This document shows positions 25,813 to 37,136 of a DNA stretch of 64,000 nucleotides, piece after piece. The notes under the pieces were generated by a model. It had not been told where the DNA came from, searched no databases, and was given only the letters and a program-made list of their open reading frames with translations. The stretch is from Kordia algicida OT-1 (GTDB lineage Bacteria; Bacteroidota; Bacteroidia; Flavobacteriales; Flavobacteriaceae), in NCBI RefSeq assembly GCF_000154725.1, contig NZ_DS544873.1, forward strand, positions 3,447,339-3,511,338, given 5' to 3'. The position numbers and the translations under genes are program-made. The first letter of the stretch is position 1; each line of letters begins with the position of its first letter.

Positions 25813-28590
25813 TTAGAATCTAAAATATAAATTTAAGAAATATGTTCTTCCTCTACCATACCAATATCTGTTACCAAATACTCTTGTTTCTAGTGCAGAG
25901 TCGTCTCTTAATTCTCTGAAGTTAGCATTTCTTCCTTGCTCAAAACCTCCAGTTTTGTATTCTTTGTCGAAAACGTTGCTAATACTTGCAAAGAACCCAA
26001 CGTAGTAATCTCCTAATTTCCATGATTTTCCACCAATAAGGTTTACTAACATGTAATCGTCAAATTGTTCTTGTCTTAATAATTCACGTGCCAATTCTGG
26101 ATTGTAATCATTAAATGGTTGTCCGTCAAAATCTGTGTAAAAATTACTACTTCTTTGTAATGGACTCACATCAATATATGCGTTAGAGAAAAAGTTGGTT
26201 GTCGCTCCAAACCACCAGTAATCTGGATCTCTATATTCAAATCCTAAAGAGAATGCTCTTTGTGGTCCACCGGCAATTTTATAATCTTTTAATGAAGATT
26301 TTCCTAAGTACAGTGTTTCTTCAAAATCTTCTGAAGATAAGTATAGGTCAGGATTGTTGTCATACGTAAACTGACCAACAGAAGCAACACCTTTTAATTT
26401 GATGGTTGATGTTACTTGTGCTTCCAATCCAAGTTCTCCTCCAAAATGTCTTTTGTCAACTCCTTGTAAGATTTCTTGAACAAACGCTTGATTGTCTCCT
26501 CCAATACCATCTGCGAAGAAGAACGAAATTTCGTTTGCATCTTCCATTTTTGTGTAATATCCAGTTAATCTTGCTTTGATTATTGGCGAACGGTAGATGT
26601 AACTTGCATCAAAAGAAGTAATTTTTTCTTCAGTGATGTTTGGTACGATATCGTGATTTTCTCTTGAGTTGGAATAAGTGTTACGAATTGAAGGTGCTTT
26701 TGTGATGTATCCACCGTTGAAATCAAATAAGTGACGTCCCGTTAATTTATACGTCAATCCCGCTTTTGCTCCAATTCCTGTGAAAGATAATTTTTCACCT
26801 TCACCAAATGATTTATTTGGGAAACCACCGTTTCTGTATAATCCGATACGTTGGTATGTTGTATTTTTTACACTACCAGCTACGAAGAAATCAACTTTTT
26901 TGTATTTGAATTGTGCTTGTGCAAAACCTCCAATAGTATTTGATTCGATATCAAACGCATAGCGGAAACGATCTCCTTCTCCTACCAATCTGTTAGGATT
27001 GTTTAAGTCGTTTTGAACACTTCCAGGATCGTTTGCTAAATCATCTGCAAAGTTATCAACATCCAAATAACCACGCGCTCCTAATAAATCTGTTACTTCT
27101 GCGAAGTTTTCAGATGTTAGTGAAGTGAATGTAGCACCTGCATTTAATGTAATGTTATCATTAATTGCCGTATTTAATATAGTGTTTGCTGTAAATTGTC
27201 TGTCGTCAGTTCTATCTTCATATACTATATTGATGGCATTTCCTCCAGCAACTAAGTTACTTTGGTTTGCTGCATATAATCCAGCCCAATCAATTTGTCC
27301 TCCATTTACGAAAGCTTCTCTTGCTCCAAACTCTAACGCTGGATTTTCAGGATTGTTTCTCGCGAAGAAACTTGGTAATTTTTGGTAATATGTTGGACTC
27401 ACATTTACACCGCTTCCAATTGGAAAACCGCTTGCATCAAGGTCCGTACCTCCAAAGTCAATACGACTTCTTCCTTGCTCACCAAATTGATACGCTACGT
27501 TTGTGTTTAATGTAGTGCTTTCACCAATATTCCAATAATGATTTAACATTAAAATAGGCTCTACAACTCTACGAACTCTTGAGTTACGCTTTTCACCATC
27601 TTGATATCCCCAAAAGTCGTTATATCTAATTCCTTTTAAGTCAAAAACTTCTTGTGTGTTTGCAGAAGATTGACCTCTCCTGTTTGGTGCGTAGATTCCT
27701 GTGAAATTTAAGCTGTGCTTGTCGTTTAATTTCTTTTCAACTGAAACGAATAAAGAATTTGCGTCATAGAAAGTACCGTCGTTAAAACCTTCATCTCCCC
27801 ATCTTCTTCCTGCTGAAACTGTATACGCCCATCCACTTTCTAGTAAACCAGAAGAATATGTTGCCATAACTCTGCTCGTGTAACTTCTATCAGATGAAGA
27901 TATGGTAACTCTACCACCTTTTCTGTACTGTGAAGCTCTAGTGTTAATGTTTGTTGTTCCTAAAATACCACCAAAAGTATAATCTGAAGCACTTAAACCA
28001 TTTGTAAGTTCTTGATTTCTTACAACATCATTTAATCCTCCCCAATTACTCCATTGTGGTCTTCCGTTGAACTGTTTGTTCATTTCAATACCGTTAATCA
28101 GTACTGTTCCATTTTCGGAATCTAAACCTCTTACTCTAAAGAAGGTAGATCCAAATTCAAAAGCGGCAGTTCTTAAGAATATATCTCTTGAAGATTGTAA
28201 TAATCCAGAGATATTGTCTGCTGCTGTTGAGTCATCATTCAATTCATCGTCAGTCAATGAGATCAGTGTCACATCTTCCTGAACGAATCTTTTTAACAAA
28301 ATTGTCCCTAGATCAATTGCTTGACCATCTGTAACTGTTACTGGCATTCTTAGAATTGCATATCCGTCTTTTTTGAAAACGACATCCACTTCGCCTGCAA
28401 CCACATTTGTTAATTTGAAGACTCCAGATGCGTCTGTAACAACTTCTTTATTATTGTTACCTGCAACTGAAACCAAAACATTTTGAATTGGGTCATCTGT
28501 ATTGGCATCAATTACCATACCTGTAATTGAATTTTGTCCGCTGACGAACCAAACTGATAGCAATCCAAATAAAAAAATAAATTTTTTCAT
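25813..28590 (-). CDS. TonB-dependent outer membrane receptor (nuclease-associated)
   Basis: This is a 925-aa outer-membrane transporter driven by TonB. It has a signal peptide (MKKFIFLFGLLSVWFVSGQ), a carboxypeptidase regulatory-like domain at about 20-100 (ITGMVIDANTDDPIQNVLVSV), a plug at about 110-225 (ISGLLQSSRDIFLR..FRVRGLDSENGTVLINGIEMN) and a 22-strand type barrel to a C-terminal aromatic (YFLNLYFRF). It is followed by the DUF5689 lipoprotein gene and is divergent from a secreted endonuclease/exonuclease/phosphatase gene. The three probably work together: enzyme outside, lipoprotein for binding, receptor for import. The substrate is not proven. Confidence 0.93.
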   Translation of the reverse strand: MKKFIFLFGLLSVWFVSGQNSITGMVIDANTDDPIQNVLVSVAGNNNKEVVTDASGVFKLTNVVAGEVDVVFKKDGYAILRMPVTVTDGQAIDLGTILLKRFVQEDVTLISLTDDELNDDSTAADNISGLLQSSRDIFLRTAAFEFGSTFFRVRGLDSENGTVLINGIEMNKQFNGRPQWSNWGGLNDVVRNQELTNGLSASDYTFGGILGTTNINTRASQYRKGGRVTISSSDRSYTSRVMATYSSGLLESGWAYTVSAGRRWGDEGFNDGTFYDANSLFVSVEKKLNDKHSLNFTGIYAPNRRGQSSANTQEVFDLKGIRYNDFWGYQDGEKRNSRVRRVVEPILMLNHYWNIGESTTLNTNVAYQFGEQGRSRIDFGGTDLDASGFPIGSGVNVSPTYYQKLPSFFARNNPENPALEFGAREAFVNGGQIDWAGLYAANQSNLVAGGNAINIVYEDRTDDRQFTANTILNTAINDNITLNAGATFTSLTSENFAEVTDLLGARGYLDVDNFADDLANDPGSVQNDLNNPNRLVGEGDRFRYAFDIESNTIGGFAQAQFKYKKVDFFVAGSVKNTTYQRIGLYRNGGFPNKSFGEGEKLSFTGIGAKAGLTYKLTGRHLFDFNGGYITKAPSIRNTYSNSRENHDIVPNITEEKITSFDASYIYRSPIIKARLTGYYTKMEDANEISFFFADGIGGDNQAFVQEILQGVDKRHFGGELGLEAQVTSTIKLKGVASVGQFTYDNNPDLYLSSEDFEETLYLGKSSLKDYKIAGGPQRAFSLGFEYRDPDYWWFGATTNFFSNAYIDVSPLQRSSNFYTDFDGQPFNDYNPELARELLRQEQFDDYMLVNLIGGKSWKLGDYYVGFFASISNVFDKEYKTGGFEQGRNANFRELRDDSALETRVFGNRYWYGRGRTYFLNLYFRF

Positions 28591-28646
28591 ACTGTAATTT
28601 GCAATTAATTATTATTTAAGTTTAAAAAATCTTTAATAACGACGCG

Positions 28647-28654
28647 CAAATGTA
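28647..28654 (-). promoter_or_regulatory. Candidate -7 element (TACATTTG) of the TonB receptor gene
   Basis: An exact TAnnTTTG match on the minus strand, 57 bp upstream of the receptor start. No exact TTG at 19-21 bp was seen. The promoter of the divergent endonuclease gene must lie in the same 138-bp gap. Confidence 0.45.
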
Positions 28655-28728
28655 CATTATTTATAATTAATAACTACTTTTGGTCTATCTTTTGCATAGA
28701 TTATTTAAGATAACATAACATTCAATAA

Positions 28729-29775
28729 ATGAAAAACCTTAAATCCCTAGTATTCTTAGCTTTTTTAGTAGTTTCTGTACAGGCATGGGCACAGAAAAAA
28801 AAGCAGTATAAGGTACAAACGATTGCATTTTATAATGTAGAAAACTTGTTTGATACTATTAATGACCCACTGAAAGATGACGAGAAGAGTCCAATTATGG
28901 AAATTCAAGGTGATCGATCAAAGATTTATAAAGATAAAATTTCAAAACTTGCGCGTGTAATATCTGACATTGGCTACGATATTGCGAAGACTTCTCCTGC
29001 TATTTTGGGAGTTGCCGAAATTGAGAATAGACAGGTTTTAGAAGATTTAGTTAATGATCCGAAGTTAAAAGATGCTGATTATGGTATTATTCACTTTGAT
29101 TCTCCTGATAAGCGTGGAATTGATGTTGGTTTGCTTTATAAACAAGGAGTTTTTCAACCTCATAGCTTTTCTAAGCATCCATTATATATTTATGATGGAG
29201 ATAAACGTATTTACACAAGAGATCAATTATTAGTTTCTGGTGTTTTAGATGATGAAGAAGTACATATTATTGTAAATCACTGGCCATCGCGTAGAGGTGG
29301 AGAAGCTCGAAGTAGACCAAAACGTGTGAAAGCTGCCGAGTTGAATAAGCATATTATTGATTCGCTACAAGATATTGATAAGAAAGCGAAGATTTTTACC
29401 ATGGGCGATATGAATGACGATCCTTTTAATGTAAGTATGAAAGAAGTACTGAAAACTAAGGAAGATCGCGATGAGGCTAATGGTAAAGATTTGTTTAATC
29501 CAATGGAAGGAATGGCAAGAAACGGAAATGGAACATTGGCATATAGAGACGGCTGGAACTTGTTTGACCAAATTATTTTTACAGCGCCTTTGTTGAAGAA
29601 AGATTTTACGGAATACCGTTATTATAAAGCAGGAATTTACAATAAGGTTTATTTGTCTAATAAACGTGGACGTTATAAAGGATATCCTTTTAGAAGTTTT
29701 GCTGGCGGAAGTTATACAGGTGGTTATAGTGACCATTTCCCTGTGTATGTACATTTAATTAAGGAAGTGAAGTAA
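28729..29775 (+). CDS. Secreted endonuclease/exonuclease/phosphatase family enzyme
   Basis: A 348-aa metal-dependent phosphodiesterase/nuclease fold of the DNase I-like superfamily. The signal peptide is MKNLKSLVFLAFLVVSVQAWAQ. Superfamily motifs appear in order: YNVENLFD (Asn, metal side), GVAEIENRQVLEDL (catalytic Glu), YKQGVF, VNHWPSRRGG (catalytic His region), MGDMNDDPFN (Asp and Asn) and the C-terminal YSDHFPVYVHL (Asp-His). All the key residues are visible, so it should be active. It is divergent from a TonB receptor and DUF5689 lipoprotein that likely import its products. It may degrade extracellular DNA/RNA or remove phosphate groups. Confidence 0.93.
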   Translation: MKNLKSLVFLAFLVVSVQAWAQKKKQYKVQTIAFYNVENLFDTINDPLKDDEKSPIMEIQGDRSKIYKDKISKLARVISDIGYDIAKTSPAILGVAEIENRQVLEDLVNDPKLKDADYGIIHFDSPDKRGIDVGLLYKQGVFQPHSFSKHPLYIYDGDKRIYTRDQLLVSGVLDDEEVHIIVNHWPSRRGGEARSRPKRVKAAELNKHIIDSLQDIDKKAKIFTMGDMNDDPFNVSMKEVLKTKEDRDEANGKDLFNPMEGMARNGNGTLAYRDGWNLFDQIIFTAPLLKKDFTEYRYYKAGIYNKVYLSNKRGRYKGYPFRSFAGGSYTGGYSDHFPVYVHLIKEVK

Positions 29776-29843
29776 CTTTTAATGTATCAATTTGACAATG
29801 TAGTAATTTGAAAATTAGCTTCATTGCGCAGAAATGAAAATAC

Positions 29844-29877
29844 AAAAAATCCTTATCGTACTTGATAAGGATTTTTT
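29844..29877. terminator. Bidirectional terminator between convergent genes
   Basis: AAAAAATCCTTATC, loop GTACTT, GATAAGGATTTTTT: a 14-bp perfect stem with A and T tails. It serves the endonuclease gene on plus and the membrane protein gene on minus. Confidence 0.88.
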
Positions 29878-29891
29878 TGTGTTTGTTTTGC

Positions 29892-30332
29892 TTAGTATAA
29901 ATTCCACCAATCTTTCCAAGGCAATCTTGATAGTATTAGTAGTAAACCTAAGCCATAGAATAACGCTATTTTACCAAAAGCTCTTTTGTCTGTTTGCGCT
30001 TTTTTGTGTTTAGACCAACCAATAGTGATTAAAACAATTGCTAAGATTCCAACTACAGGATGTTCTAAGGCTTGTAAACGGTCCGCACTTTCTAATTTCA
30101 TTCCGTTTTGCTGAATCATTTGAAAACCTTTTACAGAAATGAAATATAGAATAATTCCAATGACCAATTGCAAGTGTGTGAAGATGAGTGCAAATAATGA
30201 CACCCGTAAGTCTTTAACCGCAAACTTTCTATTGGTTGCATATCCAATTATTGCATTTCCTACAGCTGCAATTAACATGATTAACACAAAGTATGCCCAA
30301 TAGGAATGGAGCATTTGTATAGTTTCGTACAT
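29892..30332 (-). CDS. Small membrane protein with four predicted helices
   Basis: A 146-aa protein with hydrophobic helices at about 12-32, 45-65, 90-110 and 120-136 (YFVLIMLIAAVGNAIIGYA, LFALIFTHLQLVIGIILYFI, VVGILAIVLITIGWSK, IALFYGLGLLLILS). Histidines fall within or beside helices (LHSYW, FTHLQL, LEHPVVG), which has led similar Bacteroidota proteins to be named cytochrome-b-like. Heme binding is not shown. No partner genes of a redox chain are nearby. It is a single gene, convergent with the endonuclease and divergent from the LanC-like gene. It has no known function. Confidence 0.78.
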   Translation of the reverse strand: MYETIQMLHSYWAYFVLIMLIAAVGNAIIGYATNRKFAVKDLRVSLFALIFTHLQLVIGIILYFISVKGFQMIQQNGMKLESADRLQALEHPVVGILAIVLITIGWSKHKKAQTDKRAFGKIALFYGLGLLLILSRLPWKDWWNLY

Positions 30333-30458
30333 AGTTTTGTTTTTAGTTGATGTGCAAAGGTACTTAATTTTTTGATTGTGTTATTGTTTTGCTAAAGTTT
30401 AAAAAAGTAAGAAATTTTCTAGAACTTTATCCTAATTTTATACTTCAAGTAGTATATT

Positions 30459-31523
30459 ATGTGTTTAGATAATTTTTTGTCAGATTCTATCTTTAAAGCA
30501 ATCGAAAAGCAACCAACCACAACAAAAGCAGGTCTTCTCGATGGGCTTGCAGGTGAGAGTTTGTATTATTTTTATAGAAGCGCATTGTTGAATGACGATG
30601 AAGTACTCTATGAAAAAGGAATTGAAAAACTTCAAACTGCTATTGAAATCGGTAGTAAAAACTCAGCAGATACAAGTTTTTACAGTGGTGTAGCTGGTAT
30701 TGGTTGGTTGGTGTTACATTTGAAAGAGCAAGAATTTGTTGATATAGACATTGACGATTTTTTAGATACTTCCGTAGATACCTATTTATATGAGACAATG
30801 CTCGATTTTTTAAATAGAAGTATCTATGATTTTTTTTATGGCGCTGCAGGCATTTGCTATTACTTCTTAAAAAGGTATCAATGTGTGCGTGATAACAGTC
30901 AGAAAGAACTGTATAGAACTTATATTATGCATTTTCTTTTTTATTTAGAATTCATTAAGAATAAAGACGAGAAAGGTATCTTCTGGAAACATCCTGAATA
31001 TCCTTTTGAAGAAGACTCTATGTGTTTTCAATTGAGTTCACTTTCTAATATTTCCTCAATAATATTACTTTTGACAGATATTTCTTATAATAAAGAATTT
31101 ACGTCATTTTGTACAATTTTAATAAAAAAGTCAAGCGATTGGTTGATATATAAATTGGAAACTTATAAAAAAATTCGACTAGATCAAGCGTTTTGTTTAT
31201 GGAAGGCGTCAATTGTATTAAATGATAATGAACTACAGAAAAAAGCACTTCAATTGCTGAATACCGCTAAGAAAAGTATTTTAAACGAAGATGTAATATC
31301 ATTAGCTAAGTGTGCTTTGATCTATCAAAAAATAACAAAAGAAACTGATAACAATTCCTTAAAAGAAGAAGCTTTTAAGTGTTTTACAAAGGTAACTGAT
31401 AACTTGTTAGAACATACCATAAATGACAATAGTATTTGGAAAGGATATTCAGGAATCGGTTTGATTGACTTTTCTTTGAATGATAGTGTAAGCCCAGAAT
31501 GGTCAAAATGTATATTGATATAG
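30459..31523 (+). CDS. Degenerate LanC-like protein
   Basis: A 354-aa protein with the repeated Gly-rich helical hairpins of the LanC alpha/alpha barrel: GLLDGLAGESLYYFY, SFYSGVAGIGWLVLHL, DFFYGAAGICYYFL and, at the end, IWKGYSGIGLIDFSLN. True LanC cyclases hold zinc with two Cys and one His in WCYG and CHG motifs and add Cys thiols to dehydrated Ser/Thr. Here the matching places read QAFCLWKAS (Cys246) and LAKCALIY (Cys285): the Cys remain but the His of CHG is Ala and surrounding residues are changed. A classical cyclase reaction is therefore unlikely. It starts a tight plus-strand unit with a nucleotidyltransferase 6 bp downstream and a precursor-like peptide after that. A substrate-holding role is possible. 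Confidence 0.78.
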   Translation: MCLDNFLSDSIFKAIEKQPTTTKAGLLDGLAGESLYYFYRSALLNDDEVLYEKGIEKLQTAIEIGSKNSADTSFYSGVAGIGWLVLHLKEQEFVDIDIDDFLDTSVDTYLYETMLDFLNRSIYDFFYGAAGICYYFLKRYQCVRDNSQKELYRTYIMHFLFYLEFIKNKDEKGIFWKHPEYPFEEDSMCFQLSSLSNISSIILLLTDISYNKEFTSFCTILIKKSSDWLIYKLETYKKIRLDQAFCLWKASIVLNDNELQKKALQLLNTAKKSILNEDVISLAKCALIYQKITKETDNNSLKEEAFKCFTKVTDNLLEHTINDNSIWKGYSGIGLIDFSLNDSVSPEWSKCILI

Positions 31524-31529
31524 TTAAGT

Positions 31530-32279
31530 ATGGAAAAAGCTCTCGAAAAATTTATAGCTCGTTGGAAACAGAAAGGTATTGTAAGAGGAATTCTTCTCAC
31601 AGGAAGCTACGCCGTTGGAATACAGAATGAAAACTCAGATATTGATATTCGTCTGGTTTTGGATAATACTACGACAACTTCTTTTAAAGGCCTAGAAACG
31701 ATTGATGGCTTTAGCTTTTCATATATTGGTAGAAGCAAAGCTGTAACGTTAGAAAAGTTCAACAAACAGTTTTTTTCACATGTAAAAATGGAGGCTCGTA
31801 TCTACAATGTTGGTAAAATTTTATTTGATCCATATCGAGATATTGCTACACTGCAACAAATTGCCAAAAACTATGTAGAAACAGGACTGATTCCCAGAAA
31901 AACTTCTGAAACTGATCGACAGCTTCATATGTATTCCCTTCATAAAAAATATGAATATATTCTTAATACTACTCCCGATGATCCTTTTTATACCTATAAC
32001 TATATATTGTATTTAAAGAATGCATTAAATTTTTATGCGAGTGTTTTAAATACCGAAATTATATTTGAAAACGACAGTAAATTACATCGATTTTTGACTG
32101 ATAAACATTATTTAGAAATGTACGGTTATACCAGTTTTCCTGATCAAGAATTCATTAAGTTATGGTTATTGGCATTAGAAAAAAGAGAAATCAAAGAGAT
32201 CAGGGAAATTTATACTTATTTAAGAAAAAATTTATATAAGTTTAACGAATCTTCAACACTTATTGAGTGGAGTAATTAA
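31530..32279 (+). CDS. MNT-type nucleotidyltransferase next to RiPP precursor
   Basis: This 249-aa protein has the nucleotidyltransferase superfamily core LLTGSYAVG (Gly25-Ser26) followed by NSDIDIRL, giving metal-binding Asp37 and Asp39. A third acidic residue is likely in KMEARIYNVGK. The C-terminal half is helical (about 130-245), like small-molecule or protein NMP-transferases. All active-site residues seem present, so it should transfer a nucleotide, or phosphate in the manner of some relatives, to a target. Its place is unusual: it is packed between a degenerate LanC-like gene and a Cys-rich GG-leader peptide gene, 6 and 30 bp away. The peptide or the LanC-like protein could be its substrate. 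An antibiotic-resistance adenylyltransferase or a toxin-antitoxin MNT protein is the alternative. Confidence 0.82.
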   Translation: MEKALEKFIARWKQKGIVRGILLTGSYAVGIQNENSDIDIRLVLDNTTTTSFKGLETIDGFSFSYIGRSKAVTLEKFNKQFFSHVKMEARIYNVGKILFDPYRDIATLQQIAKNYVETGLIPRKTSETDRQLHMYSLHKKYEYILNTTPDDPFYTYNYILYLKNALNFYASVLNTEIIFENDSKLHRFLTDKHYLEMYGYTSFPDQEFIKLWLLALEKREIKEIREIYTYLRKNLYKFNESSTLIEWSN

Positions 32280-32309
32280 GATATTTATGGTTCATTTAAA
32301 ATTTTAATC

Positions 32310-32519
32310 ATGAAAAAAAATCAAAGAAAGTTAAGTTTAAAAAAAATGTCAATTTCTAACTTGGCAGTTGTAAAAGGAGGAGCTGGAACTGTTTGGTGCA
32401 CTATTACTGTTGGTACTAGTGGAGCAAGCACTTGTAATTATACGCCTGGCTGCCCTCCAACAGCGGAAAGCGCATGTTGTGATACTATAGGGGATTCTCA
32501 CTGTGATAGAGAATCTTAA
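32310..32519 (+). CDS. GG-leader RiPP precursor-like peptide with six Cys, 69 aa
   Basis: The leader KLSLKKMSISNLAVVKGG (Gly23-Gly24) matches the Bacteroidota class I lanthipeptide-like leader and resembles that of the peptide at 10701-10874. The 45-residue core is rich in Cys, Thr and Ser: AGTVWCTITVGTSGASTC, NYTPGCPPTAESACC, DTIGDSHCDRES. The six Cys include one CC pair. It is the third gene of the LanC-like/nucleotidyltransferase unit and is followed by a strong terminator. No LanB dehydratase lies in the window, so lanthionine formation would need enzymes in trans. Disulfides or another modification are possible. Confidence 0.82.
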   Translation: MKKNQRKLSLKKMSISNLAVVKGGAGTVWCTITVGTSGASTCNYTPGCPPTAESACCDTIGDSHCDRES

Positions 32520-32544
32520 TCTTAGACTAAAAAAAATACTAAAA

Positions 32545-32571
32545 TAAAAGCCTCGCATTGCGAGGCTTTTA
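32545..32571. terminator. Terminator after the six-Cys peptide
   Basis: AAAAGCCTCGC, loop ATT, GCGAGGCTTTT: an 11-bp stem with A and T tails between the convergent peptide gene and TonB receptor gene. Confidence 0.88.
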
Positions 32572-32594
32572 TAATTATATATTGAGATTTCTTC

Positions 32595-35336
32595 TTAGAA
32601 GTTGTAACGAACGCTAAAGTTCCAAGTTCTTCCAAATCCGAAGAATGCTTTGTTTGCCGTGTTGATTCCGTCATACGTATCGTCTCCTGGATCAGCAAAA
32701 ATGTTTGTTTGCGATTCAGCTAAGTATGTTGTGTTGAATAAGTTGTTAACGTTCAATCTGAAGTTGATTGTTTTGTCTTTTTCTTCTCCAACAAACCATT
32801 TGTAAGATACACCACCATCAAATAAGTTGTATGCTGGTAATTGTAAAGAACCTCTGTTGTCTTCTTCGTCAAAGTCTTCTGCTCTAATATCAGCGTATAA
32901 ATTATCAGCTCTAAATCCAGCAATGTCAAACTTTAAGTTTTCAACTGGCTCAACAATCATTGCTAAACGCATTGTTGTTTGTGCAGCATTTCCAACTTTT
33001 ACATCATCTAAGTACAATGTGTTTTCACCAACTTGCTGGTTTTGATCGTTCACGTTGAATGCAGGTCCAGAAAGTGTTCCTCCGTATTCCCAATTACCAA
33101 CTGACGCCATACCATTGAAAGTTAAGAAGTCTAATGGACGGTATGTGAACTCTAATTCAACTCCTGAGTGAATTTGCTCTAATCCTACAAGGTTTGTACG
33201 TCCTTGAACTGTTGCGTTTGGATCTGTTGGCATAGAAGGGTCTTGGAATGTTCCGAAGATACTAATGTATCTATCTTTCCAAGAAGTTCTGTATAAGTTC
33301 AAGCTCACGTTTAACTTTTCAGACTTATATCCATATCCTAATTCAGCCCCAAATACTTTTTCGTTTCTGTAATCCTCGTTGACATCGTTAGTGTTATCTA
33401 GATAAACAGCATCAAATAAAGGTTGCTTTGAGTAATAACCAACATTACCAAATACATTGTGATTCTCGTCAATGTTGTAGTTCAATCCACCTTTGATGGT
33501 TCCTCCTAAGATGTTTTCCCAGTCTGTACGTTGTCCTTCAGCAGGTGTTACTAAGAAGAAATCTTCTCTACTAAATCCTTGGTTAGAACCAGAGAACTGT
33601 ACGAATGCAGAAACAGCATCTTTCTTATATTCTAACTGACCGAATAGACCTAACCAACGAACATATCCAATGTTGTAGTAGTCAATTTTATCTTCATCGT
33701 CGATATCTTTAAATACGTTTACGATTGATCCGAAATCAGAAGAATATGTGTTTGTTAATACTCTGTTTGGACTGTTTACGTTATCGTTATCTCTATATGC
33801 ATCCGCTCCTAATAGGTTATCTAATCTTCTGTAGTGGAAACCTTTGTATGTTCTAGCATCGATACCAACATCTAACGTTAAGTTTTCGTTTAGTTGTGTA
33901 TTTAAGTTTGCTAATAAACCAAACCAGTTGTGAGAGTTGATAGAAGCTCTTCTTGATAAACCGTTATCTCTACTGTCGTTAATGAATAAACCGTTTTCTT
34001 GATCAGTTCTTTGATATACGTTTCCATCAGAGAAAGTAACTGCCTGTCCACTGTTGTACTGTACGATTCTATCCCATAATACTTCACCATTTTGTTGGTT
34101 TCTGAAGATTGAACTAGAAGCAAAGTTAAATCCTGGTAAACGTCCGATGTCTCCAGTTCCTCCACCACGACCAAATGATGCATATCCAACAGTAGATAAT
34201 TTCATGTTGTCATTGATGTTCCAATCCCAGTTTAAAGATAATACTGGCTTGTGGTAGAAGTTTCTTCTCCAATTGAACTCTTCTCCATTTAATGTACCAT
34301 GGTTGAAGTTGTACTTATCACCAAATTGTAAATATTGTGCAATTGTTGCTGCGTTAAAGAAACTTGTTGTTCTTTGGTTGTGAACCTGTGGCGCACCAGT
34401 AACAGTAAATTGAACGTCGTGTGTTCTGTCTTCGTCAGTCCATCCAAATCCTAAGAAATAGTTGTATCCTTCAAAAGCAGTTCCGTTTATGTATCCATCT
34501 CCAGCAGTTCTACTGAATAATCCAGTGAATGCAAATCCGTTGTCCATTCTTCCTGTAGAGTACGAAGCAATAGTTTTTAAGTAGTTGTCGTTACCTAATG
34601 TCGTACCAACAAATCCACCTTCGTTTCTTTCTGTAGTTTTTGTTACAATGTTTAATGTACCACCAACAGATGAGATCGCCAATTTAGAAGATCCTAAACC
34701 TCTTTGTACTTGAATCGCAGAAGCTACGTCTGCTAAACCAGTCCAGTTACTCCAGTAAACAGCTCCGTTTTCCATGTCGTTTACTGGCACACCATTTACT
34801 AATACAGCAGTGTTTACCTGATCGAATCCACGAATGTTGATTCTTGAATCTCCAAATCCACCACCAGATTTTGTAGCATACACAGAAGGTGTAGCGTTTA
34901 ATAATTCTGGAAGTTCTTGGTTACCTAATCTTTCAACAATTTCTTCAGCTTTAATAGTAGATACTGCTACAGGAGTTTCACGCTCTTTTGCGATATCAAC
35001 TACACCAACAATTACTACTTCATCAAGAGAATTGTCAGATACTAAAGTGATAGTTCCTAAATCCTGCGTTCCACCAGTTACGTTGAATGGAATAGATTTC
35101 GTTCCAAATCCTACAAATGATACTTCAATAGTACCTGTAGCACTTTTTACATTTAATTTAAATTTCCCATCAAAGTCGGTTGATGTTCCATTAGACGTTC
35201 CCTTAACAACTACACTAGCTCCTGGTAATGGACCATCAGCCTCTACTACCTTACCTGTAATTGTTCCCTGAGAAAAAGCAACTGATGTTACTAAGAACAT
35301 CGCTACTACAAAAAACAAATTGTTAATCGTTTTCAT
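32595..35336 (-). CDS. TonB-dependent receptor with carboxypeptidase-like N-terminal domain
   Basis: A 913-aa outer-membrane receptor with signal peptide MKTINNLFFVVAMFLVTSVAFSQ, a carboxypeptidase regulatory-like domain at about 23-110 (GTITGKVVEADGPLPGASVVV), a plug with DEVVIVGVVDIAKERETPVAVS at the TonB box region, INIRGFDQVNTAVLVNGVPVND, and a barrel ending FSVRYNF. It is transcribed alone on the minus strand; the next gene on that strand upstream (pgi) ends 156 bp away. It lacks an adjacent SusD, so it is not a classical glycan-uptake pair. The substrate cannot be read from the sequence; siderophore, cobalamin or small-molecule import are all possible. An A/T-rich stretch with GCATGCAT occurs in its promoter region near 35385. 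Confidence 0.93.
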   Translation of the reverse strand: MKTINNLFFVVAMFLVTSVAFSQGTITGKVVEADGPLPGASVVVKGTSNGTSTDFDGKFKLNVKSATGTIEVSFVGFGTKSIPFNVTGGTQDLGTITLVSDNSLDEVVIVGVVDIAKERETPVAVSTIKAEEIVERLGNQELPELLNATPSVYATKSGGGFGDSRINIRGFDQVNTAVLVNGVPVNDMENGAVYWSNWTGLADVASAIQVQRGLGSSKLAISSVGGTLNIVTKTTERNEGGFVGTTLGNDNYLKTIASYSTGRMDNGFAFTGLFSRTAGDGYINGTAFEGYNYFLGFGWTDEDRTHDVQFTVTGAPQVHNQRTTSFFNAATIAQYLQFGDKYNFNHGTLNGEEFNWRRNFYHKPVLSLNWDWNINDNMKLSTVGYASFGRGGGTGDIGRLPGFNFASSSIFRNQQNGEVLWDRIVQYNSGQAVTFSDGNVYQRTDQENGLFINDSRDNGLSRRASINSHNWFGLLANLNTQLNENLTLDVGIDARTYKGFHYRRLDNLLGADAYRDNDNVNSPNRVLTNTYSSDFGSIVNVFKDIDDEDKIDYYNIGYVRWLGLFGQLEYKKDAVSAFVQFSGSNQGFSREDFFLVTPAEGQRTDWENILGGTIKGGLNYNIDENHNVFGNVGYYSKQPLFDAVYLDNTNDVNEDYRNEKVFGAELGYGYKSEKLNVSLNLYRTSWKDRYISIFGTFQDPSMPTDPNATVQGRTNLVGLEQIHSGVELEFTYRPLDFLTFNGMASVGNWEYGGTLSGPAFNVNDQNQQVGENTLYLDDVKVGNAAQTTMRLAMIVEPVENLKFDIAGFRADNLYADIRAEDFDEEDNRGSLQLPAYNLFDGGVSYKWFVGEEKDKTINFRLNVNNLFNTTYLAESQTNIFADPGDDTYDGINTANKAFFGFGRTWNFSVRYNF

Positions 35337-35492
35337 AAGTTTTATTAGTTTATTTAATGCCGCAAAAATCGTATTTATTGTGCATGCATATATTAAGCGA
35401 ATGTTAAATGTTTTAACATTTGTTCAAAAATACATTTTTAACTTATTTGATTGTTTTGCAGTTAATTAAGATATAAACCAAATTATCAACAC

Positions 35493-37136
35493 TTATTTTC
35501 TGTTTTCTTTGAAGAATCTTAAAAGATTCGTTGTAGAACTGTCATGTTCAGCAATTTCAGAGCTCTTAATGTCTGTTAAAATTTTAGTTGCGAGTTGTTT
35601 TCCTAGTTCAACTCCCCATTGATCGTAACTAAAAATATTCCAAATAACACCTTGTACAAATATTTTATGTTCGTATAAAGCAATGAGTGCTCCCAAACTT
35701 TTTGGAGTGAGTTTGTCTATTAAGATGGTATTCGTCGGTTTATTGCCTTGAAATATTTTATATGGAAGTAATTTTTCTATTTCAGAAGCACTCATTCCTT
35801 TCGCTGTTAACTCAGCAACAACTTCTTCTTTAGTTTTTCCGTTGAGTAATGCTTCCGTTTGTGCGAAGAAATTTGCCATGAGTTTTTCATGATGATCTTC
35901 TTTATGATGTAATGAATGAATATATCCAATAAAATCCGCAGGAATTAGTTTAGTTCCTTGGTGTATGAGTTGAAAAAACGCGTGTTGTGAGTTGGTTCCT
36001 GGTTCACCCCAAATTAAAGTTCCCGTTTGGTAGTTGACACGATTTCCATTTCGGTCTACACTTTTACCATTACTTTCCATGATACCTTGTTGTAGATAGG
36101 CTGAAAAACGCTGTAAATATTGTGTGTACGGAATGATGGCTTCACTTTCTGCTCCATAAAAATTATTGTACCATACACTTAATAGCGCCAATACAACTGG
36201 AATGTTTTGATCGAAAGAAGCCGTTTTGAAATGGTTGTCCATATTATGTGCTCCAGCCAATAGTTTATCGAAATTGTCGTATCCTGTTGCCAAACTGATA
36301 GATAAACCGACCGCACTCCAAAGCGAGAAACGTCCGCCAACCCAATTCCACATAGGAAATACATTTTCCGACGCAATTCCGAATTCGCTTATTTTTTCCA
36401 AATTCGTAGATACTGCTACAAAGTGTTTTGCTACTGCTTCCTCAGATGCGTGTGACATAAACCATTTGCGGATAGTCATGGCATTACTTAACGTTTCTTG
36501 TGTAGTGAAGGTTTTAGAAACAATGACAAATAAAGTAGTTTCGGGATTTAGGTTTTTAATTACTTCTTGCACATGATCGCCATCTACATTAGAGACAAAA
36601 TGTACATTTAAGTGGTTTTTGTAATATTGTAAAGCTTCCGTTACCATGGCTGGACCTAAATCAGAACCACCAATTCCAATGTTTACAACGTCTGTAAAAG
36701 CTTTTTCGGTATGTCCTTTTTTACTTCCTGAAATGATTGCTTCTGAGAAATTTTTTATTTTTTGCTTGACTTCATATATTTCAGGAATGATATTTTTTCC
36801 ATCTACAAAAACTTCAGCATTTTCCTTTTCGCGCAAAGCGGTGTGTAATACAGCTCTATTTTCAGTTTGATTGATACTCTCGCCATCAAAGTATTTTTGA
36901 ATGTTTTCCTTAAGATTGACCTCAGCAGCCAATTCCAACAATAAATCCATCGTTTCTTGCGAAATATTGTTTTTGGAATAGTCTACATAGAAATCTTGCC
37001 ATTGAATGGTAAACCGATCTGCTCTTTCTGCATCTTTTTTAAAATATTCTTTTATCGCAAACGATTTCGTTGCATAGAAATGCTCCTGAAGTTTATTCCA
37101 AACTTCAGTTTCTGTAGGATTTATGTTTGTTAACAT
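35493..37136 (-). CDS. pgi: Glucose-6-phosphate isomerase
   Basis: A 547-aa cytosolic enzyme of glycolysis interconverting glucose 6-phosphate and fructose 6-phosphate. The phosphate-binding and catalytic segments are present: [75 protein letters not shown] (with catalytic Glu and His region) and the C-terminal [13 protein letters not shown] with the catalytic Lys. Length is normal for bacterial Pgi. It lies 5 bp after the M23 lipoprotein gene on the same strand and is the last gene of the run DUF3108-dioxygenase-M23-pgi. Confidence 0.97.

Follow-up and report, generated by a model that had tools for sequence, protein, structure and literature searches.

A window of 64,000 nucleotides from the 5.03-Mb genome of Kordia algicida OT-1, the whole stretch of DNA that was analyzed, contains three consecutive genes on the plus strand. 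The first encodes a LanC-like pseudo-cyclase of 354 amino acids (30459..31523), the second a PF01909 nucleotidyltransferase (NT) of 249 amino acids (31530..32279), and the third a 69-residue precursor peptide with a class I lanthipeptide-type leader and a six-Cys core (32310..32519). The genes are separated by gaps of 6 and 30 bp, and a bidirectional intrinsic terminator-like hairpin (32544..32572), which has a 13-pair stem on both strands and was rated strong, separates the trio from a convergent TonB-receptor-like gene. An original prediction made from this DNA had described three tightly spaced genes followed by a terminator, and the coordinates, gaps and hairpin were confirmed. This arrangement is not due to chance, because the three genes follow one another in the same order, again closely spaced, in three other Kordia genomes (loci L016, L036, which shares a contig with L011, and L037). 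In a fourth genome (L039) the order is the same, but the LanC gene is broken. In comparisons of orthologues of the trio, synonymous change far exceeds non-synonymous change, with dN/dS ratios (NG86) that are rough because dS is above 1 in all LanC and NT pairs and undefined in 3/6 precursor pairs.

What the NT may do is suggested by the last residue of the peptide encoded beside it. At 20/20 loci with an intact NT, the nearest precursor has Ser or Thr as its last residue, compared with 6/91 other precursors (Fisher 4e-17), which were taken from 40 places of a ranked list and from the loci retrieved for the analysis. Three of those six belong to NT loci that have a second or third precursor (L018 and L044), and the rest lie in L072, L113 and L114. 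The census left out L045 (NT broken), L049 (NT remnant) and L050 (the locus of genome G725, considered below), and L039 contributed no precursor to it because the frame there, which by eye has Thr at its end, shows no ATG. When precursors are grouped by similarity and a cluster is counted as Ser/Thr if at least half of its members end so, the rule is followed by 8/9 NT-linked clusters and 2/40 background clusters (Fisher 9e-7). An alternative count of all precursors within 700 bp of an NT gives 19/21 ending in Ser/Thr vs. 4/90. Three loci fetched after the rule had been noted also obey it, their precursors ending in ACS (L128), KLS (L129) and KLS (L130). At positions -2 to -8, NT-linked and other precursors are not significantly different in Ser/Thr.

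The Ser/Thr rule follows the NT. It holds with an intact LanC, a degenerate LanC or none nearby, and at the LanB/LanC locus of K. algicida itself, in which no NT could be detected, three precursors have Cys, Cys and Glu as their last residues; because of this independence from the LanC state and these other endings, the rule appears to track the NT itself. An anecdote in the same direction comes from L045, where the NT is broken and the neighboring precursor frame ends in Gln. The simplest reason for Ser/Thr at the last position alone would be a reaction at that residue requiring its beta-hydroxyl. Based on the census of terminal residues, the proposed modification site in the window is Ser69 (codon at 32514..32516, plus strand). 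In this way an unexplained co-localization of genes becomes a precise prediction of one enzyme, one residue and one mass shift.

The gene content of the loci points to the same pairing. A precursor lies within 700 bp of the NT in 19/21 intact flavobacterial NT loci; in L040 it is found at 2,950 bp, and in L039 it was not detected by the census rule. By our own estimate, chance adjacency within 700 bp would occur at about 6%, given at least 122 precursors in the K. algicida genome, or about one per 41 kb. A LanC homologue occurs near the NT in 15 of the 21 loci (one broken, two doubled) and is absent from six within the stretch examined. Because of this variation, the constant pair is the NT and the precursor, with LanC being intact, degenerate, doubled or absent. 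K. algicida itself possesses a second locus with an NT, a precursor and an intact LanC (L013). In three loci from other flavobacteria (L012, L129 and L130) the NT is followed by LanC, LanB and a separate LanB C-terminal protein. LanB was identified in each of them by PF04738 or blastp, and the C-terminal protein was assigned by Pfam in L012 and by eye in L129 and L130. These three loci, the window group, L040 and L042 form one supported clade in the NT tree.

The NT family is matched in 10/11 Kordia genomes, that of K. algicida included, with one to five matches each; in G402, 2/3 matches are interrupted. One of these loci, L045 (G402:C1, 7698-8795), is decayed, its NT frame being interrupted and the adjoining precursor frame having no ATG. 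Its occurrence elsewhere in Flavobacteriaceae is sporadic: profile searches found the NT in 2/6 genomes of the genus of G297 and 2/398 of the genus of G127, and it is present in Flavobacterium sp. ASV13 (L012). No match was obtained in the plasmids or viral contigs searched. A sample of the class yielded matches in 2/395 genomes, namely K. algicida (G000) and G725. The latter match (L050) is weak (E 1.4e-16) and was treated as an unrelated NT, since G725 has no LanB or LanC match and no precursor lies within 3.5 kb of it.

The NT consists of a pol-beta-type N-terminal domain and a helical C-terminal part, and it scores 28.6 bits against PF01909 (cut-off 21). The original prediction had considered it catalytically complete from its GSY and DID motifs, and by motif this assessment stands. 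Specifically, in the GSY...SDID segment (residues 25-39, 31602..31646, plus strand), G25, S26, S36, D37 and D39 are invariant in 21/21 family members, with I38 also present in the window protein, so the GS-x(10)-DxD motif is retained throughout the family. Twelve residues are invariant in 21/21 NTs, among them G25, S26, D37, D39 and Glu176 (codon at 32055..32057, plus strand), the last being a candidate third acidic catalytic residue. The AlphaFold2 (AF2) model of the NT has a mean confidence (pLDDT) of 90, and its closest PDB folds are ANT(4'') and kanamycin nucleotidyltransferase (KNTase), with TM scores of 0.53-0.59 and identities of 11-14%. HalB, ANT(4')-IIb, LinB, MNT antitoxins and one uncharacterized NT-like protein come further down the list, and CCA-adding enzymes stand low. 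Enzymes of the ANT type adenylylate hydroxyls, transferring a nucleoside monophosphate (NMP) to them. Apart from its PF01909 match, the window NT is assigned to no family by the NCBIfam models, the MntA antitoxin model reaching 19.9 bits (cut-off 60) and HalB 17.3 bits (cut-off 190).

The precursor and the wider genome connect the trio to class I lanthipeptides. The leader region extends to Gly23-Gly24 (32310..32381, plus strand), the cleavage site for a C39 peptidase expected from the alignment of precursors, and is followed by a core with six Cys that is rich in Ser, Thr and Cys, in agreement with the original description of this peptide. The leader segment LSLKKMSISNL fits LxLxKx5L with terminal GG and is thus of class I by motif, not by model. 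Leaders of the form LxLxKx5L...GG have been described for the class I LanAs of Bacteroidetes in the accessible parts of PMC7268733. The window peptide has no match to NCBIfam NF038153 at E up to 1, and 2/8 relatives tested pass the cut-off of that model (22), L013 with 34.7 and L018 with 38.2. The figure of at least 122 precursors in K. algicida counts matches at E up to 1 among the best 150 of 166 candidates. Across the 11 genomes of the genus, at least 105-149 leader-like precursor matches per genome were obtained at this threshold, in 10/11 from the best 150 candidates, vs. a single LanB in each.

As originally noted, no LanB is encoded in the window. The genome has a single PF04738 match, at C1:3416113, which places LanB about 61 kb upstream of the NT; next to it are encoded an intact LanC, a PF14028 protein, precursors, a C39-ABC transporter and an HlyD-type protein. 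A nearby complete LanB/LanC system that uses this precursor in the classical way had been named as a finding that would count against a new pathway; a complete system does exist just outside the window, and it would presumably act on this precursor. Each of the 11 Kordia genomes has exactly one PF04738 match, and LanB is present in 15/15 flavobacterial NT genomes checked (11/11 and 3/3 in two sets, and L012, within its locus). Since LanB is also present in G398, the Kordia genome that lacks the NT, LanB is general and the NT an addition. Because LanB occurs in all 15 of these NT genomes and three of the NT loci also carry LanC and LanB, the trio appears to be a dispersed unit of the class I lanthipeptide type and not a LanB-free pathway. 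The earlier idea of an undescribed ribosomally synthesized and post-translationally modified peptide (RiPP) system is retained as far as a conserved unit is concerned; the unit appears to belong to class I lanthipeptide biosynthesis, and the co-localization itself had already been mentioned in PMC11118758.

Based on these observations, the NT would transfer a nucleotidyl group, most likely adenosine monophosphate (AMP), to the hydroxyl of the C-terminal Ser/Thr within a dispersed class I tailoring unit, a reading to which we assign a probability of roughly 55%. Nucleotidyl transfer to the terminal hydroxyl is the most direct interpretation because of the ANT-like fold together with the Ser/Thr rule at position -1. 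The precursor would presumably be dehydrated and cyclized by the LanB/LanC set about 61 kb upstream, perhaps before the local NT recognizes it and moves AMP from ATP onto the side-chain hydroxyl of its last residue. Cleavage after GG and export may then be carried out by the C39-ABC transporter of the LanB locus, and the product would be a peptide bearing a terminal phosphodiester-linked nucleotide. Nucleotide transfer to Ser/Thr had been part of the original prediction, and it remains the best reading as the addition of a final C-terminal group; its other form, in which AMP activates residues for dehydration, is very unlikely.

The zinc-less LanC-like protein may bind the precursor for the NT or for enzymes acting in trans. 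It scores 51.5 bits against PF05147 (cut-off 23.2), and its AF2 model (pLDDT 87) is a LanC toroid, closest in the PDB to the class I cyclase MadC (TM 0.70). The original prediction that the zinc-site His had been lost was correct and understated the change: in an alignment of 15 homologues, both zinc-Cys segments are missing from the window protein and its three orthologues, and another sequence stands in place of the His-Gly motif. Short LanC copies in L018, L040 and L042 also lack the Cys pair, while 8/15 homologues retain the zinc ligands, and the C...CH ligands are intact in the LanC of the K. algicida LanB locus (L015). The zinc-less protein is thus unable to act as a normal cyclase. The gene is not decaying, because comparisons of orthologues give dN/dS values of 0.17-0.29 (dS being saturated), and the protein is probably an accessory binder. 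A general need for it as a holder, which the original prediction had proposed, is weakened by the 6/21 intact NT loci that have no LanC homologue nearby. Because intact and degenerate LanC genes stand in tandem upstream of the NT in L040 (8024-10945) and L042 (7833-10716), the data suggest that LanC was duplicated and that the window lineage later lost the intact copy, a history that the tree does not resolve. These two loci also share, by eye, a similar neighboring protein of 186-202 amino acids. The LanC of L018 (7266-8324, G297) is degenerate in a different way, with a very long branch and DHW replacing CHG, and perhaps represents an independent loss of the zinc site.

Several points weigh against nucleotidyl transfer to the terminal residue. 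The rule was initially derived by eye from 17/20 loci, so that only three are fresh, two of them near-identical, and the background consists of the precursors most like the NT-linked ones and not of a random draw. L047 has a second precursor, 468 bp away from the NT, whose last residue is Gln. Residue 88 of the NT, which we take to be a candidate catalytic Glu by analogy with E87 of AadA, is Glu in 16/21 members and Gln in 5/21. The NT is rare outside this lineage, since a sample of the family has it in 4/397 genomes, all among those named above. The PADLOC candidate defense family PDC-S09 weakly matches up to 18/18 NTs (best E 1.4e-8; window 1.1e-5). Lastly, the name nucleotidyltransferase, when assigned by homology, may mislead, given that the annotated nucleotidyltransferase PsmN reportedly adds one or two hexoses to the phosphorylated C-terminal Ser of the lasso peptide pseudomycoidin (accessible parts of PMC8498205 and PMC9266682).

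The PsmN precedent raises the possibility that the window NT acts on the same C-terminal Ser/Thr and transfers a sugar or phospho-sugar instead. In the available sections of PMC8498205 and PMC9266682, a kinase phosphorylates the C-terminal Ser of paeninodin and pseudomycoidin, and in pseudomycoidin this residue is the next target of the annotated nucleotidyltransferase; the groups found were hexoses, and one review allows for the possibility of a preceding nucleotidylation. Therefore, both AMP and a sugar are possible at the C-terminal Ser/Thr. PsmN reportedly acts only after the kinase PsmK, whereas a single P-loop kinase-like neighbor (L046) was recognized by eye in the open reading frame lists of the NT loci, and the NT fold is closest to adenylyltransferases. 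Sugar transfer is thus considered unlikely, with nucleotidyl transfer remaining preferred.

It is also rather improbable that the NT is an immunity, antitoxin or defense protein that inactivates the mature peptide or some other target. Along with the PDC-S09 matches, NCBIfam searches with 18 NTs gave weak matches to MntA antitoxin models (17/18), ANT(9) (3) and HalB (1), PADLOC 'Cyclase' models match up to 7/18, and the near folds include resistance enzymes, HalB and an MNT antitoxin. The PADLOC models come without displayed cut-offs, and both sets of PADLOC matches are probably superfamily-level matches. The window NT is far under the curated cut-offs for MntA and HalB, and its neighbors are a LanC-like protein and a precursor, with no toxin pair (neighbors at other NT loci were assigned by eye). 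On the same grounds, a type VII MntA/HepT antitoxin was rejected as an identity for the window NT. Moreover, self-protective addition of AMP to the terminal Ser would still be a C-terminal modification, differing mainly in purpose.

In another scheme, AMP on Ser/Thr would be an activating group for dehydration in a LanB-independent route to lanthipeptides. The absence of a LanB homologue from 18 intact NT loci (all but L012, L129 and L130) and a core rich in Ser, Thr and Cys would fit this scheme. In opposition to it, LanB is found in 15/15 flavobacterial NT genomes checked, in three of them within the NT locus, the enrichment of Ser/Thr is limited to the last residue, and the trio encodes no elimination enzyme detectable by Pfam. 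LanB-free dehydration was ruled out as the leading explanation by the first two of these observations, and we regard it as very unlikely. Some pol-beta-type NTs act on tRNA ends, and CCA-adding enzymes are among the lower-ranked folds, yet an action of the NT on RNA, such as the tRNA-Glu used by LanB, with a merely regulatory gene pairing, would leave the terminal Ser/Thr rule of NT-linked precursors without a reason and is hardly credible.

If nucleotidyl transfer to the terminal residue is correct, nucleotidylation joins lanthipeptide tailoring as a new RiPP tailoring reaction, and a role is suggested for zinc-less LanC proteins, a new use of a degenerate cyclase. It would also provide a signature for genome mining, namely an NT beside an LxLxK-GG peptide ending in Ser/Thr. 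A more tentative proposal, possible although we would not wager on it, is that Flavobacteriaceae make nucleotidylated lanthipeptides in which an ANT-like enzyme places AMP or another NMP on a C-terminal Ser/Thr with the aid of a pseudo-LanC adaptor, yielding conjugates reminiscent of microcin C-type Trojan horses.

The trio occupies a conserved chromosomal site (25813-37136) whose flanking genes, named by eye, recur in Kordia and other flavobacteria with varying RiPP content. A glucose-6-phosphate isomerase-like gene recurs in the window, L012, L017 and L018, and genes for a TonB-receptor-like protein and a membrane protein of about 140 amino acids recur in the window, L012, L017 and L129, and not in L018. 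Elsewhere in the K. algicida genome, L014 (2927-9478; C1, about 3079-3085 kb) encodes a LanC homologue (PF05147, 229 bits), a 329-residue protein with GPTGT-like repeats and a 510-residue protein, and is perhaps an unrelated RiPP-like cluster.

The NT shares its overall fold with ANT(4''), KNTase and the LinB-type adenylyltransferases. Those enzymes possess a GS...DxD motif and transfer NMP to a hydroxyl. The NT differs from ANT(4'') and KNTase in its low identity, given above, and in its genomic context, which is that of a RiPP precursor.

Among RiPP clusters, the lasso systems of paeninodin and pseudomycoidin, as described in the accessible parts of the reports cited above, also include an annotated nucleotidyltransferase, which acts at a C-terminal Ser; the precursors considered here end in Ser/Thr, the putative acceptor. 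The lasso systems belong to another RiPP class, the kinase acts first and the reported product is hexosylated. The RiPP-cluster LanCs of Bacteroidales are similar in that LanC homologues lack C-gap-CH and have no LanB nearby, and differ in that the available text of PMC10352776 mentions no nucleotidyltransferase ('nucleotidyl' has 0 occurrences). With the Bacteroidota class I lanthipeptide systems covered by the accessible parts of PMC7268733, the window unit shares the leader motif, the GG site, the LanC family, and a LanB plus separate C-terminal protein in the genome; here, in contrast, LanB is about 61 kb off, the local LanC-like protein is without zinc ligands and an NT has been added. 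The term 'nucleotidyl' has 0 occurrences in the main text of that paper.

The closest precedent is a single sentence in the discussion of PMC11118758 (Microbiome 2024), which states that a LanC cyclase and a nucleotidyltransferase co-localize around precursor peptides in Kordia. From the portions of that paper available, these are very likely loci of the window kind. The literature search, which extended to few subscription journals, found no further case of NT, LanC and precursor, and the accessible parts of PMC10734526 and PMC13289728 added none. The same portions of PMC11118758 mention neither a terminal Ser/Thr rule nor a pseudo-LanC, and they describe no loci with the NT alone, no linkage to LanB and no mechanism. 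What is added here to that report is the Ser/Thr rule, the NT-precursor core, the NT loci with LanC and LanB, the dispersed LanB in the genus and the conserved zinc-less LanC.

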